Positions 7,950 to 14,783 of a stretch of 30,229 nucleotides of DNA are shown in pieces. Each line of letters begins with the position of its first letter. Positions within the stretch are counted from its first letter, which is position 1. Origin of the DNA: a virus; IMG/VR virus record IMGVR_UViG_3300021425_000119, positions 1 to 30,229 of that record; one strand, 5' to 3'. The translations under genes were made by a program, and so were the position numbers. The notes beneath the pieces are model-generated. The model was not told the DNA's origin and searched no databases. It worked only from the letters and a program-made list of their open reading frames with translations.

Positions 7950-8918
7950 GTGGCTCGTTCCCTTATAAGAAATATACAACCGAGAGACGTTAAAAAATTA
8001 TTTGGTAACTTATCGCAGACTAATTATTATCAGGTAGACTTTTCGTCTCTTTCTACTTTTGCACAAAATCAAGAACTTATAAATTATTTGAGTAAAAGAG
8101 GTGTTGATAAGGATTTTATTTCTAGGGATGCAGGACTTCTCTGTTCTGAGGCATCATTGCCGGGAACTAGTCTTGCGACTGCAGAAGTAAAAGACAACTT
8201 TATGGGCATATCTCAAGAATTTGCACATACGAGATTATATACTGATTTTGATTTTACTTTTTATGTTGATACTGATTATAAGAGTATAAAGTTTTTTGAG
8301 GGATGGATTGATTTTATTAGTAGTGGTAGTGAAGCAGTAGACCAAGCAAATCCTTTGAATTCAAATTATTATCGTAGAATGAGATATCCAGATACTTATA
8401 AATGCCAAACTGTAACAATTACAAAGTTTGAAAGAAATGTTGGTAACACTAATACAATAAAATATTCTTTTATTAATGTATTTCCAAAGACAGTTAGTGC
8501 CATTCCTATTTCATATGGTGGTGCAGATATATTGAGAGTTTCTGTAAGTTTTAATTATGATCGATATGCCATAGATATTTCTGGATTTTCTAAAGGTCAG
8601 CAAGGTAAATTTACGGATGTTACGCAATCTTCTGCCGAACAATCTGCAGCATATCAGAATAGATTAAAATCATTATCAACGAACTCTCAAACAGTCAGAC
8701 AATCACAAACAAAATCAACTTCAACTGGTCCAGTAAAATCAACACCAGTTTCTACTCCCGCTGCCAGAAATCTTCAAGAAGTTGCTGAAACTGGAGGAGG
8801 ATCAAGTAGAGAATTGACTCTTCAAACACTTCTCAAAAGATATGGTGGAGATACTGCTAGAGCATATACTGAACTTGATTCAATGTTCCCTGATAGAACA
8901 AAAGGTATCTCACGATAA
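7950..8918 (+). CDS. 54: Baseplate tail tube initiator gp54
   Basis: 322 residues (T4: 320). gp54 polymerises on gp48 and is the platform for the gp19 tail tube. The stretch IKYSFINVFPKTVSAIPISYGGADILRVSVSFNY (residues about 170-203; quoted in parts) matches the T4 gp54 order PISVSAPELSYDGD...TTFDVTFAYRVM: proline-serine turn, S/Y-G-G-D, then a beta strand. The N-terminus NYYQVDFSSL and LCSEASLPG fit tube-protein beta sheets. The C-terminal 100 residues are Q/S/T-rich. The start is GTG with AGG about 8 bases upstream; no in-frame ATG fits better. Confidence 0.75.
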   Translation: MARSLIRNIQPRDVKKLFGNLSQTNYYQVDFSSLSTFAQNQELINYLSKRGVDKDFISRDAGLLCSEASLPGTSLATAEVKDNFMGISQEFAHTRLYTDFDFTFYVDTDYKSIKFFEGWIDFISSGSEAVDQANPLNSNYYRRMRYPDTYKCQTVTITKFERNVGNTNTIKYSFINVFPKTVSAIPISYGGADILRVSVSFNYDRYAIDISGFSKGQQGKFTDVTQSSAEQSAAYQNRLKSLSTNSQTVRQSQTKSTSTGPVKSTPVSTPAARNLQEVAETGGGSSRELTLQTLLKRYGGDTARAYTELDSMFPDRTKGISR

Positions 8919-8955: not shown

Positions 8956-9678
8956 ATGCCATTACCCAAGATTAATACACCAACTTATGAGTTGACATTG
9001 CCTTCGACTGGAAAGAAGATTAAGTATAGACCCTTTCTTGTGAGAGAAGAAAAGATTCTGATTATGGCAATGGAATCTGAAGATATGAACGAGATTACCA
9101 ATGCCATCGTTCAAATTCTTTCTGATTGCATTATTTCTAATGATGTAAAAGTAGAATCCCTTGCAACTTTTGATATTGAGTATTTGTTCTTGAATGTTCG
9201 TGCCAAATCTGTTGGTGAAAGTGTAGAAGTTAATGTGACTTGTCCAGATGATGAAGAAACACAAGTAGAAATGTCTATCGATATTGATACGATTAAAGTT
9301 CAAAAGACCAAAGGGCATAAGAATATTATCAAACTCGATAATGATCTTTCGATGAAACTTCGTTATCCTTCATTGGAGCAGTTTGTAGAAAATAATTTTG
9401 AAACTGCAGATGGGACCAGTGAAGTTGGTCAGTCACTTTCAATGATTACATCGTGTGTTGAGATGATTTATAATTCGGAAGAAAGTTGGGAAGCATCTGA
9501 TTACTCGAAGAAAGAACTTGATGAATTTATTGAGCAGTTGAATACAAAACAGTTCAAGGAAATTGAAAAGTTTTTCACAACAATGCCAAAACTTTCTCAT
9601 ACTATTGTAGTAAAAAATCCAAAGACAAAAGTAGAGTCAGAAGTTGTTCTTGAGGGATTGGCAAGTTTTTTCAGTTAG
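8956..9678 (+). CDS. 26: Baseplate hub/T4_baseplate family protein gp26
   Basis: 240 residues. It opens LPKINTPTYELTLPSTGKKI and continues KYRPFLVREEKILIMAMES, the start I associate with the T4_baseplate family (PF12322; T4 gp26/gp51), followed by an all-helical C-terminal half. In T4 these proteins act in hub assembly. Here the gene lies just ahead of a tape-measure-like gene, the usual place of tail assembly chaperones. The last codons AGT TTT TTC AGT TAG contain an in-phase T TTT TTC heptamer, and the -1 frame continues into the next ORF, which would give a 300-residue fusion. Confidence 0.8.
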   Translation: MPLPKINTPTYELTLPSTGKKIKYRPFLVREEKILIMAMESEDMNEITNAIVQILSDCIISNDVKVESLATFDIEYLFLNVRAKSVGESVEVNVTCPDDEETQVEMSIDIDTIKVQKTKGHKNIIKLDNDLSMKLRYPSLEQFVENNFETADGTSEVGQSLSMITSCVEMIYNSEESWEASDYSKKELDEFIEQLNTKQFKEIEKFFTTMPKLSHTIVVKNPKTKVESEVVLEGLASFFS

Positions 9679-9692
9679 GTATGGCTCATACC
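9652..9692 (+). promoter_or_regulatory. Predicted programmed -1 frameshift cassette
   Basis: Parts in order: an SD-like GAGGG (9652-9656), 9 bases, the slippery heptamer T TTT TTC (9666-9672) in the gp26 reading phase, a 5-base spacer, and a perfect 6-bp hairpin GGTATG-GCT-CATACC (9678-9692). After a -1 slip the frame reads Q-L-G-M and enters the 58-residue ORF without a stop. This matches the layout of bacterial -1 sites such as dnaX (SD about 10 bases upstream, heptamer, hairpin) and the position of G/GT-type tail chaperone frameshifts. Confidence 0.7.
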
Positions 9693-9857
9693 AATCTTGA
9701 GTCATACTACAAGATAAATTTTGCCCTGTTACAGCATCATAAATATTCATTAACAGAGCTAGAAAATATGATTCCTTGGGAAAGAGAAGTTTATCTTGCT
9801 CTTCTCCAACAGTATATTGAAGAAGAAAACCTAAAAGCACAGCAAAGTGGAATCTAA
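9681..9857 (+). CDS. Small tail-chaperone-like ORF, likely frameshift extension of gp26
   Basis: 58 residues, helical: YYKINFALLQHHKYSLTELE then NMIPWEREVYLALLQQYIEEE. The IPWER block and size recall the T half of G/GT tail chaperones. The ORF is in the -1 frame of gp26. Its own ATG lies inside a 6-bp hairpin and has no proper Shine-Dalgarno (AGG ends one base before it), so independent starts look poor. Most likely it is made only as the C-terminal part of a gp26 fusion: 239 gp26 residues, Q-L-G, then these 58. Its end overlaps the next gene's GTG by 11 bases. Confidence 0.7.
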   Translation: MAHTNLESYYKINFALLQHHKYSLTELENMIPWEREVYLALLQQYIEEENLKAQQSGI

Positions 9858-11622
9858 TTTAAATCTACCATCAAGTACGACACCAAAATTAAACGTTCAA
9901 ACTGTCTCATCGGCAATTTTTGGGAAAGATGGTGGATTAAAAGGTTCCATTAAAAATATTCACGGAACCATTGGTAAATTAGCAGGACATTTTAGAAAAG
10001 CTATAATCCGTATCGGTGTATTAGAGAAAAAATTATTTGCTGTAGAAAAAAGACTTACCATAAGTGAGGAAAAAACTGCAAAAATAATTAATATTCTAAA
10101 GACTCAAAAATCAAATGTAGGTGCAAAAATAACTGCAACCGGAGGAAAAAATAACTTAGAGAAAAAGTTTTCAGAATTAGAAAAGAAACGTACATTAAAT
10201 ACTGAAAAAATCACTAAAATAAAGGATATATTAAAGACACAAAAAAGTAATATAGGGAAAAAATTACCTGGTAGTGATCAAGATAATTTAGAAAAAACAC
10301 TTACAGAAACAAATAAACTTCTTGTAGAAATACAAAAAGAATTATCAAAAGCATTTGCTTCAAGAGCAGATGATCAAAGAAGAAGACAAGATAATCTTAG
10401 AAGGGCACAATCAAAGAGAAAACTTCAAAGAGAAGAAAGTCAGCTGGAAAAGTCATCGAAGAGACTTGGAGAATCTGTTGCAAAGAATGCTAATGATATT
10501 GTTTCTCCGGTGAAGGGAATTTTTGGTCGAATTATGGACTTTATCGGAACAATGGTTCTCGGTATTGCATCAAATGCAGTGTTTGAATGGTTGAAGGATG
10601 AAGACAATAGGAAAAAAGTAGAGGGTTGGTTTAACTGGATTAAAGATCACTGGAAGTGGGTTGCTGCTGGTATTGGTGCTCTAGCACTTATACCTTTAGT
10701 TGGTGCAATCGGAAGTGTGATTGGAGTAATTGGATCGGCTGTTGCCGTAATTAAATTGGCAATGATGCCACTTTTAGCATTATTACTCAATCCTTTGTTC
10801 TGGAAAGCAATGTTGATTGTTGGTGCTGGTGTTCTTCTTTATAAAGCTGGAGAAACTTTATTTAAAACGGCTAGAGGTGGAATTACAGGTGGTCAGAAAT
10901 TTAATGCGGCACATGATATTTTGGATAAAAAAATGGAGGATGCCGGACTAGTTGTACGTGGTCCTAATGCCGGTAAAGAAAAAAGTAAAAGTAAAAGAGG
11001 AAGAGGTTTCACATATTCTGATCCTACGGATCCTGAAAAGATGAAAGTTGCCGAAGAAGTGAAAATGAAGAGAAAGCAGTTGTATGATTTGCGAGATGAG
11101 ATGAATAATGAAATTAAAACAGAAACTGCAAAAATAGAATCTTCCGGTCCCACTCTTAAAGGTGAATCAATTAGTGGTCAACCAGAAATGAGTAGAGCAA
11201 AAATAGAAAAAGGTATTAGAAAAAAATATGAGGAAAAAATATTCAATCTAGTTCCAGAAGTTGGTCAACCAGAATCATCCGCACCCGAAAAGAGAAAGAT
11301 GGGTGGTCCTGTAAAAGCAGGAATGCCCTACATTGTTGGTGATCAACTTGGAATGAAAACAGCAGAATTGTTCGTTCCTCATGTTGATGGCACAATCATA
11401 AGCAACCAAAAAACACAAAAAGTATATCAAAATCTAACTTCAAGAAAAAGAGGTCGTGGTGGAGTTAATATTTCAACTTTGCCAATGATTACAAATCAAT
11501 TGCCACCACCAGAAGTTCAATTGCCAAGTGATTCTGCTACCGATGTTCCAGAGATTTCTAGTGTAAATATGACAGATCCTTATCGTCAATTGAGTCCTAT
11601 GCTATATGGTATAACGGTGTAG
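9847..11622 (+). CDS. Tape-measure-like tail protein
   Basis: 591 residues. Layout: an N-terminal lead with GSIKNIHGTIGKL (about residues 34-46), a long charged coiled-coil (50-205), hydrophobic helices at about 265-340 (GIGALALIPLVGAIG and following), a charged linker, and a C-terminal GGPVKAGMPYIVGDQLGMKTAELFVPH block (about 485-512) like that near the end of many tape measure proteins. Tape measures set tail length and pass into the host envelope. It follows the gp26/frameshift pair, as expected, and could be the T4 gp29 equivalent, though it is short for that role. The GTG start at 9847 overlaps the previous stop. The N-terminal KNIH motif and the end RQLSPMLYGITV recur in the next two genes. 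Confidence 0.65.
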   Translation: MESNLNLPSSTTPKLNVQTVSSAIFGKDGGLKGSIKNIHGTIGKLAGHFRKAIIRIGVLEKKLFAVEKRLTISEEKTAKIINILKTQKSNVGAKITATGGKNNLEKKFSELEKKRTLNTEKITKIKDILKTQKSNIGKKLPGSDQDNLEKTLTETNKLLVEIQKELSKAFASRADDQRRRQDNLRRAQSKRKLQREESQLEKSSKRLGESVAKNANDIVSPVKGIFGRIMDFIGTMVLGIASNAVFEWLKDEDNRKKVEGWFNWIKDHWKWVAAGIGALALIPLVGAIGSVIGVIGSAVAVIKLAMMPLLALLLNPLFWKAMLIVGAGVLLYKAGETLFKTARGGITGGQKFNAAHDILDKKMEDAGLVVRGPNAGKEKSKSKRGRGFTYSDPTDPEKMKVAEEVKMKRKQLYDLRDEMNNEIKTETAKIESSGPTLKGESISGQPEMSRAKIEKGIRKKYEEKIFNLVPEVGQPESSAPEKRKMGGPVKAGMPYIVGDQLGMKTAELFVPHVDGTIISNQKTQKVYQNLTSRKRGRGGVNISTLPMITNQLPPPEVQLPSDSATDVPEISSVNMTDPYRQLSPMLYGITV

Positions 11623-11626
11623 TAAC

Positions 11627-13348
11627 ATGGCAGCACCATTGATTGCTGGATTAGCAAGAGCATTTGCATCTCAAGGAGTAAGGAAAGTTGCGGCTCAAGG
11701 TGCTAAAAAAATTGCAAAAGATAAGATAAAATCCACATTAAAAGACAAAGTAAAAGATAAAACCAATAAAAAATTATCTAAAAAATCTCAAATAATATCG
11801 TCCAGTGGAGATTCGGAAGTAAATGTCATTCAAAGACGAACCTTTGAAGATACAGATTATTCTGCAGATTCCAGATCTACTTCAGATAGGTCATCAATAC
11901 AATCGGCATCTACATCTTTATCACCAGTAAACCAACTGAAGATGAATGTAAAAAACATTCACAAATTCTTATTGAATCGAAATAAGAAGAATGCAAAACT
12001 TCAGAGTGAAGATAAAAGAATTTTAAGAACACAAGTAAGTAGAGATAAATTTGCATTGAGAGAAAGGAAATTAGAGGCTTCTCCTTTTGGCAAATCACTT
12101 AAAAATATAAAAGATTCTGTTCCATCTCCCAATGAAGATGGTAATATATTAGATAAATTATTAGAATTTATTGGTGTAATTATTTTGGGAGTTATTGTTA
12201 ATGGTCTTCCTGCAATTGTTGAAAAAGTTCAAGAAATTATTGATAATATAGTTAATTTCTTAACTCCTATTCAAAGTGGATTTAATCTCATAAAGGCATT
12301 CTTTACCGGAGAATTGGATCAGGTAAAATACAATGCAGATAGAAAAAGAGTTGATGGAGCACTCGAATCATTTGAAGCAGATGGTGGTTTGATTGATCAA
12401 ATGGCAGAAAAGTTGGGACCACTTGGAGGTATAGTTAAACAATTGAAACCATTAACAGGAATGTTAAGGAAACAGGTTAAGGGAAAAAATGTTGTTCTTG
12501 CCAAAAAGGGTGGAAAGGAAGGATTTCTGGATAAAAAAACTGGAGAATTTACTGAAAGAGAATGGACTTCAGAAGAAAGAGAAACGATGTATGGAACAAG
12601 AGGTTCTGGTGATAGTGGTGCACCCGGAGACACTGAAGGTGGAGGTGGAGATGTTGAAGGAGCTGGATCGACTGATGCAAATAATGTTTCTGGTTATCCG
12701 ATTACAAGTCATTATGGTAGAAGATGGGGAAGACTGCATGGAGGAATTGACGTTGGAACCCCAACAGGAACAGCATTGGCTCTGAGTCATTCTGGAGAGG
12801 TAATATACTCCGCACTACATGGTGGATATGGAAATATGATTGATGCATGGGTTCCTGCTCTCAATGTTCAATTTAGATTTGCACACTTGACTAAGAGATA
12901 TAAGAAAACTGGAGAAAAATTTAAGGCGAATGAAGTTCTTGGTTTGACTGGTGGTGGTGCTGGAGATCCAGGAAGAGGAACATCTACAGGACCTCACTTG
13001 CATTATGAAATTGATACTGCAAGAGGTGGAGCAAAATATGGTGGAGCAAGAAATAAAGCACTTCTCTACCGAATGGCAAAAAATGTTAAACTCGGAAATA
13101 TTTTGCCATCAACTGGTGATGGAGAAGGTGGAGGAATTGATATAATTAAAGGCAATATGCCAACCAATGAGAAAGTTGCACAAATACAACAAATATCCCA
13201 TCCAGATCCAACAGGAAATGTTTCCACATATTATTATGTTCAACCTTATGAAACCATTCAAAATCAAATAGTCACATTCCCGATTCCAGTATCTAACAAA
13301 TCAATGAGTCGTGGTAGAAATGAACTTAATCCTTTATGGGAGATGTGA
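11627..13348 (+). CDS. Tail protein with M23 peptidase (endopeptidase) domain
   Basis: 573 residues. After a basic N-terminus comes VKNIHKFLLNRNKKNAKL (about 106-123), coiled coil, a hydrophobic helix FIGVIILGVIVNGLPAIVE (about 181-199), the block FFTGELD..YNADRKRVDGALESF, and KGGKEGFLDKKTGEFTEREW. Residues about 353-475 form an M23 (lysostaphin/LytM-type) domain with metal ligands H371 and D375 (HGGID) and catalytic/ligand H457-L-H459, all present. It should cut peptidoglycan cross-bridges during infection. Residues 100-320 are clearly paralogous to the next gene. The C-terminus reads RNELNPLWEM. Four bases separate it from the tape-measure-like gene. In a different phage group such a protein might be called a tail lysin. 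Confidence 0.82.
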   Translation: MAAPLIAGLARAFASQGVRKVAAQGAKKIAKDKIKSTLKDKVKDKTNKKLSKKSQIISSSGDSEVNVIQRRTFEDTDYSADSRSTSDRSSIQSASTSLSPVNQLKMNVKNIHKFLLNRNKKNAKLQSEDKRILRTQVSRDKFALRERKLEASPFGKSLKNIKDSVPSPNEDGNILDKLLEFIGVIILGVIVNGLPAIVEKVQEIIDNIVNFLTPIQSGFNLIKAFFTGELDQVKYNADRKRVDGALESFEADGGLIDQMAEKLGPLGGIVKQLKPLTGMLRKQVKGKNVVLAKKGGKEGFLDKKTGEFTEREWTSEERETMYGTRGSGDSGAPGDTEGGGGDVEGAGSTDANNVSGYPITSHYGRRWGRLHGGIDVGTPTGTALALSHSGEVIYSALHGGYGNMIDAWVPALNVQFRFAHLTKRYKKTGEKFKANEVLGLTGGGAGDPGRGTSTGPHLHYEIDTARGGAKYGGARNKALLYRMAKNVKLGNILPSTGDGEGGGIDIIKGNMPTNEKVAQIQQISHPDPTGNVSTYYYVQPYETIQNQIVTFPIPVSNKSMSRGRNELNPLWEM

Positions 13349-13352
13349 ATAA

Positions 13353-14783
13353 ATGAATAAGACAACTATTAAAGAACTTCAAAAAGTAAAGTTGAACGTA
13401 AAAAACATTCATAGTGTTTTAATCAATGCCAACAAAAAACAAGAGAAATTAAGTTCATCAATAACAGATTTGGAAAAAAGGGAAGAACAAAAAAAGAAAT
13501 TCGAAGCAAAGGAAAGAAGATTAGAATCTCCATTTTCATCTTCACTGGATAATATTAAAAAAAGTGTTAAACCTTCTGGAGATGAAGGTGGAGGAAACAT
13601 TTTCGATAAACTGTTTGAATTTATAGGATTATTGCTTGCAGGAATTGTAGTTAATGCTCTACCTGGGATTCTTAAAAAAGGTAAGGAAATAATCGATGGA
13701 ATTACGAGTTTCTTTGCTCCTATTCAAAGTACTTTTAGATTAATCATAGGATTTTTAACAGGTGAATTAGACAAATCAGATTACGATGCAGATAGAAAAA
13801 GAGTTGATGATGGTTTCAATCAACTTAACAAAAAAGGTGGATTAGTTGATAAAATGTTAGATAAAACTGGACCTTTAAAACCACTAATAAAAAAATTACT
13901 AAATGCATTTAATTTAGGATCTAAAAAAAGTAAAAATATAGTTCTTTCTAAACAAGGTGGTAAAGAGGGATTTTATAATAAGGAAACTAAAAAATTCACT
14001 GAAAGGCAATGGACTTCCGAAGAAAGAAGATCCTATGAGGGTGATGATGAAGATGATGGTGACGTACCTGCCGGAAACATATCAACCTTAGTTCCAGAAG
14101 GTGGATTAAAAGGTCTTACTGATGATGATTGGAAAGAGCTTGCATATATTGTTAGTGGTGAAGCACAAAGAGGAACAGATGATGAATATGGTGTTGCCGC
14201 AAATGTATTAACTCGTGTTGCACATCCAGCATGGCCAAATAATATTAGAGATGTTGGAAGACAAAGTGGTCAATATGAAGCAGTATACACTGGAAAGGCA
14301 AGATATGAACCAGCACTTGCTCAGAGTTTAAAAGAAAATCAAGGAAAAATAGCAGATGCACTAAAAAAATTGAATGGTAGAGATTCTTTTAAAGGAACTA
14401 GTCAATACAAAAATATGGGATCTGAAGATGTTAAGTTTTCTCCAAGAGGAAACTTTTATCATTATGGAAGTCAACGGAAGAAAAGTGATCCACCACCACC
14501 AAATCCCGATCAAAATTGGAAAAAGTGGATTGAAGATGCAGAAGCACCTATGGGTGAAGGTGGATCACTTTCTATGTTCTCTCCGTTAATTGATAAAAAT
14601 AAACTAGATACTATTAATCAACCAATGTATGAGGATATGGACGATGAAGAAGAAATGGTAAATATTTCTATTCAACCTGTAAATACAATAAGAACATCTT
14701 ACATTTATAAACCTATTCCCCTAAAAACACGAGGAGAAATGAGATCAACCTCACCACAACTATCACCAATATGGAGTGCTTAA
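13353..14783 (+). CDS. Paralogous tail protein with SleB-type cell wall hydrolase domain
   Basis: 476 residues. Same plan as the preceding gene: VKNIHSVLINANKKQEKL (about 12-29), coiled coil, FIGLLLAGIVVNALPGILKK (about 89-108), FLTGELDKSDYDADRKRVDDGF, then KQGGKEGFYNKETKKFTERQWTSEE. In place of M23 it has, at about residues 257-375, a Hydrolase_2/SleB-like domain: LAYIVSGEAQRGTDDEYGVA with E268 as likely catalytic acid, NVLTRV, and QYEAVY. These enzymes cleave the glycan strand, so the pair would attack both bonds of the wall. The end reads PQLSPIWSA. ATG follows the previous stop by 4 bases with GGGAG about 10 bases upstream. Confidence 0.78.
   Translation: MNKTTIKELQKVKLNVKNIHSVLINANKKQEKLSSSITDLEKREEQKKKFEAKERRLESPFSSSLDNIKKSVKPSGDEGGGNIFDKLFEFIGLLLAGIVVNALPGILKKGKEIIDGITSFFAPIQSTFRLIIGFLTGELDKSDYDADRKRVDDGFNQLNKKGGLVDKMLDKTGPLKPLIKKLLNAFNLGSKKSKNIVLSKQGGKEGFYNKETKKFTERQWTSEERRSYEGDDEDDGDVPAGNISTLVPEGGLKGLTDDDWKELAYIVSGEAQRGTDDEYGVAANVLTRVAHPAWPNNIRDVGRQSGQYEAVYTGKARYEPALAQSLKENQGKIADALKKLNGRDSFKGTSQYKNMGSEDVKFSPRGNFYHYGSQRKKSDPPPPNPDQNWKKWIEDAEAPMGEGGSLSMFSPLIDKNKLDTINQPMYEDMDDEEEMVNISIQPVNTIRTSYIYKPIPLKTRGEMRSTSPQLSPIWSA

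Follow-up and report, generated by a model that had tools for sequence, protein, structure and literature searches.

A conserved frameshift in tail genes was reportedly described by Xu, Hendrix and Duda in 2004. Gp26 and gp51 of phage T4 are known as hub assembly chaperones, of which gp51 is required and is absent from the particle (PMC3004832). Chaperone genes of the T4-like type were identified by Vladimirov et al. (2022), a work that is cited in PMC12846349 for their poly-T slippery sequences; as far as this attribution goes, the frameshift considered here is not new in kind but is a member of the known T4-like chaperone type, and the remark in the initial annotation on the lack of a reported frameshift for the gp26 family does not stand.

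The stretch of viral DNA that was analyzed (30,229 nucleotides of an IMG/VR virus record, hereafter the window) belongs to a marine phage of the T4-like type and carries a gp26 family gene (Table 1), the product of which matches PF12322 at E 7e-74 and phrog_150 at E 9e-81. The 3' end of this gene reads GCA AGT TTT TTC AGT TAG, with the stop codon at 9676-9678, and the codons following a slip would be CAG TTA GGT ATG GCT, giving ...ASFF-QLGMAH... at the junction. The -1 frame is open from the heptamer to a stop codon ending at 9857, which predicts a gp26-T fusion of ~300 residues. The sequence bears out the elements listed in the initial annotation, i.e., the GAGGG, the 9-nt gap, the in-phase heptamer, the 5-nt spacer and the open -1 frame, as well as its claim that the start codon of the downstream ORF is buried in RNA structure, this ATG (9681-9683) being located within the stem and 2 nt past the gp26 stop. 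The locus thus presents an in-phase heptamer of the form X XXY YYZ together with a downstream structure, the arrangement expected of a -1 programmed ribosomal frameshift site.

Based on the sequence evidence set out below, it is highly probable that tail assembly chaperones of two lengths, a short G-like and a long GT-like form, are made at this locus by a -1 programmed ribosomal frameshift. Most ribosomes would translate gp26 and terminate at its TAG, while some would be slowed by the stem, and possibly also by contact between GAGG and the anti-SD, and these slowed ribosomes would tandem-slip at T TTT TTC and continue in the -1 frame to the end of the fusion. The two forms would then represent the chaperone pair for the tape-measure-like protein encoded next, in the manner of lambda gpG/gpGT. 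The phase of the heptamer, its conservation, the codon constraint, the covariation of the stem and the homology that both halves show to T4 gp51 are read in the sequences, and slippage itself, its frequency and a chaperone role in cyanophages are inferred; the earlier suggestion of a frameshifted gp26 fusion acting as the GT-like chaperone is supported by what was seen of conservation, codon usage, RNA structure and homology.

Table 1. Features of the gp26 locus and its immediate surroundings in the window
Feature	Coordinates	Strand	Basis
Tail-tube-family gene (PF23849, phrog_45), upstream of gp26	7950..8918	+	
gp26 family gene (PF12322 T4_baseplate; phrog_150), 240 aa, predicted short G-like tail assembly chaperone	8956..9678	+	family matches
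SD-like GAGGG, possible stimulator	9652..9656	+	9-nt gap to heptamer
Slippery heptamer T TTT TTC, gp26 phase	9666..9672	+	T TTT TT[C/A/T] in 148 clusters
-1 frame T domain, 61 residues post-slip from QLGMAH (coordinates include the stop codon)	9672..9857	+	
11-bp stem-loop, 9678-9688 pairing with 9698-9708, beginning 5 nt past the heptamer	9678..9708	+	folding, covariation
58-codon ORF from internal ATG	9681..9857	+	as listed
Tape-measure-like gene (putative function), 591 aa, downstream of the T domain	9847..11622	+	

The alignment of gp26-family genes that the initial annotation had proposed as a check was found to favor the frameshift, since the heptamer, its phase and the -1 ORF are all intact in each of the 79 close relatives that could be read. 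In a wider set, comprising 332 loci from further searches and named phages, which were grouped by gp26 protein identity (90%) into 152 clusters, the heptamer is present in 148 clusters, its seventh base being C in 141, A in six and T in one. An alignment of distant relatives offered no conserved stretch from which related loci could be sought. In the six A-type clusters the second Phe is replaced by Leu (TTA) while the heptamer is still slippery, as is the TTT variant. The codon 5' of the heptamer is AGT, AAT, TCT, GCT, GAT or ACT, and its final base is always T, whether it encodes Ser, Asn, Asp, Ala or Thr. T TTT TTC is also found in the distant phages Aeh1, Aswh_1, XZ1 and D479, and furthermore in IC12 and ORM_20, which are phages of Rhizobiales hosts. 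The four clusters outside the 148 are represented by RHph_I1_18 and the Vibrio phages K475, BX-1 and 207E48.1. RHph_I1_18 possesses an in-phase T TTT TTA AAC upstream of the range in which the heptamer was searched for, and its -1 frame again yields FFKLAYSYIDPIMYYK. Rhizobial phages (L083:2680-2710; L085:2690-2735) employ other heptamers, namely T TTT TTT in phiN3 and T TTT TTA AAC in RHph_I1_18, and in the latter the slip falls several codons ahead of the stop.

The gp26 C-terminus largely retains its Phe-Phe pair as such, and the heptamer could accordingly have been retained by chance or for other causes acting on codons or amino acids, with no fusion being expressed. Codon usage in the same genes renders this reading extremely improbable. 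Elsewhere, TTT serves as the Phe codon in 1200 cases and TTC in 446 (27%); of 151 further Phe-Phe pairs, only 13 are encoded by TTT TTC and 83 by TTC TTT, as compared to TTT TTC in 141 of 148 clusters at the slip site (Fisher P = 1.5e-59, a value that serves as an index only, as clusters drawn from one collection of loci share ancestry). Moreover, the T domain is kept as a protein in all lineages and is found fused in T4 gp51. The same codon counts bear on slippage of RNA polymerase on the T run, by which mixed mRNAs would be produced. Such transcriptional slippage would have a run of six T preceding the C to act upon, a short run by the standards of slippage in bacterial RNA polymerases, and it was rejected as the TTC is retained against the codon bias, even though TTT is the commoner codon and would lengthen the run. 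The position of the stem, 5 nt downstream, in turn fits ribosomal pausing, and polymerase slippage is therefore considered very unlikely.

Structure downstream of the heptamer points to the ribosomal frameshift as well. The 38 nt located 3' of the heptamer exhibit a mean MFE of -11.5 kcal/mol vs -3.7 +/- 0.87 at other offsets, and in 117 of 146 loci <5% of segments of this kind inside gp26 are equally stable; a mixed alignment with misaligned ends was left out of folding. Within the window's clade, from which alone the covariation evidence was drawn, the 11-bp stem is paired in 93% of cells vs 25-43% when slid, and the pair 9686:9700 occurs as TA (30), GC (11) and AT (5), indicative of compensatory change. 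In other clades this position is occupied by another stem, e.g., CCCUCU/AGAGGG. The hairpin of the initial annotation is thus present after its 5-nt spacer, although not with the proposed length: the 6-bp GGTATG/CATACC represents a possible pairing but was rejected as the main structure, as the predicted structure, conserved and covarying, is the 11-bp stem. On the 5' side, GAGG or GGAGG occurs ~10 nt upstream of the heptamer in 69 of 148 clusters, and Glu at the SD-like position is encoded by GAG in 68 of 103 cases vs 989 of 3282 (30%) gene-wide. To judge from these counts, the SD-like element is genuine, yet the site can do without it.

The 58-residue ORF matches phrog_634 (baseplate hub assembly catalyst), and also the C-terminal end of phrog_150, i.e., the family of gp26 itself; the T domain of relatives is likewise annotated as gp51 or baseplate hub assembly catalyst (phrog_634). 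The current database reading is one of translational coupling, in which ribosomes would stop at the gp26 TAG and restart at the ATG at 9681, thereby producing a separate 58-residue T protein. This is how gp51 is annotated in P-SSM2, phiN3 and ACG-2014f, where it figures as a separate gene after the stop, and in the window's clade the ATG is indeed placed 2 nt after the stop. Across the clusters, however, no ATG is found before T-domain codon 16, a position well inside the conserved region, in 70 of 140; an ATG is present within six codons in 54 of 140, and absent from these six in 86. An independent gp51 start was thus rejected as a general mechanism, half of the lineages being devoid of a usable ATG, and none of 316 loci was found to carry a -1 frame start codon 5' of the slip. 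Coupling would, furthermore, leave the conserved heptamer, the T that precedes it and the position of the stem unexplained, and T4 gp51 carries the T domain in fused form. Though a stop/start overlap of the TAATG type in four Vibrio phages that lack the heptamer speaks for coupling, it is an improbable explanation for the locus described here, where the 58-codon ORF is probably not an independent gene. A stop and restart at this ATG could nevertheless also make some free T domain in the window's clade. Under the frameshift reading, the cyanophage 'gp51' is in all likelihood not a gene but the C-terminal portion of a protein made by frameshifting, which explains why gp51 is missing (S-CAM4, Aeh1), truncated, or started at an internal codon (P-SSM7, D479) in deposited genomes.

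The four Vibrio phages in question are K475, BX-1, 207E48.1 and D531, in which the downstream ORF is intact without the heptamer, a combination that the initial annotation had named as counting against its proposal. These four are distantly related, and the frameshift thus does not extend to every member of the protein family. Vibrio Ackermannviridae-like phages (L087:2700-2905, L091:2720-2920, L093:2700-2902 and L352:2570-2770) keep gp26 and T-like ORFs, with an overlap of the TAATG type and no slippery heptamer. All sampled relatives of the cyanophage type possess the heptamer with the exception of L335, a 236-kb metagenomic phage contig. There (2200-2220), gp26 and the T domain are fused in frame, and the heptamer site is 2 bases shorter than in its neighbours; in this single record, possibly only the long form is made, or the contig or its assembly is in error.

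The genes of this region are ordered as tube-like, G, T and tape-measure-like, although the gene at the upstream end could be a baseplate tube-cap relative instead of a tail tube. The 591-aa gene matches no named family, and its putative identity as a tape measure is based on its length, its charged N-terminal half, its hydrophobic block and its position. This ORF and two that follow (9847-11622, 11627-13348 and 13353-14783) form a tandem of three tape-measure-like ORFs that look like paralogs: a profile of the first finds the other two (E 7e-11, 6e-16), while the second and third share 51% identity across 227 aa, with M23 peptidase and SleB-like hydrolase domains present in them. It would be unusual for a tape measure to be hetero-oligomeric. 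AlphaFold models of gp26 (pLDDT 88) and of a T4-type gp51 (pLDDT 89) exhibit a similar order of elements, with extra C-terminal helices in gp51. A Foldseek search of the PDB with the gp26 model gave weak matches, none of them significant, among them the HK97 chaperone 2ob9 (E 0.7-0.8, prob 0.60-0.72), and the matches listed with prob >0.4 were to the HK97 chaperone 2ob9 and to 3fgx (E 0.7-3.2); a PDB sequence search with the gp26 profile and T4 gp51 was unproductive.

When compared to described systems, the locus resembles that of lambda gpG/gpGT in that a -1 shift near the end of a short chaperone gene is predicted to yield a long fusion product, and in its position, which follows a tail-tube-family gene and immediately precedes a tape-measure-like one. 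This comparison is one of layout. The heptamer here is T TTT TTC, and gp26 is larger than lambda gpG. The chaperone locus of Vandenendeviridae and Andersonviridae, with its GTTTTT motif (PMC12846349), is likewise poly-T slippery and has a -1 ORF that was wrongly annotated as a separate gene; these are different phage families from that of the window, and are likened to it by motif and annotation only.

The gp26 and gp51 tail assembly chaperones of T4-like phages, in contrast, belong to the same protein family as the gp26 and T domain of the window. T4 gp51 (249 aa) matches phrog_150 over its full length (E 1e-87) and PF12322 at 1-201. Using hhalign, cyanophage gp26 was found to align with the N-terminal part of gp51 (E = 7e-9) and the T domain with its C-terminal part (E = 7e-9), while the cross pairs (gp26 with the gp51 C-terminal part, and the T domain with the gp51 N-terminal part) gave no match. 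As both halves match, T4 gp51 represents a gp26-like domain and a T domain in one gene, and the predicted long form of the window corresponds to the short form with a C-terminal domain homologous to the gp51 C-terminus, a homology that concerns the encoded parts only. The slippery heptamer is absent from gp26 of T4, Apostate, phiAS4, Gravdalen, Roth78 and leB, all of which possess both 26 and 51. We give an even chance to the combined proposition that T4-like phages ancestrally made both chaperone forms by the -1 frameshift, and that it was replaced in lineages such as Tevenvirinae by gene duplication (26, 51) and in some Vibrio Ackermannviridae-like phages by stop/start overlap. If true, a single family holds three coexisting means by which the ratio between two partner proteins is set. 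The protein family offers a natural comparison of frameshifting, gene duplication and stop/start overlap, and lends itself to testing how tail assembly depends on the short-to-long ratio. The large alignment pinpoints synonymous changes to be placed in a reporter. In T4, the two forms are encoded by separate genes on opposite strands, whereas in the window one gene and a -1 shift would supply both.
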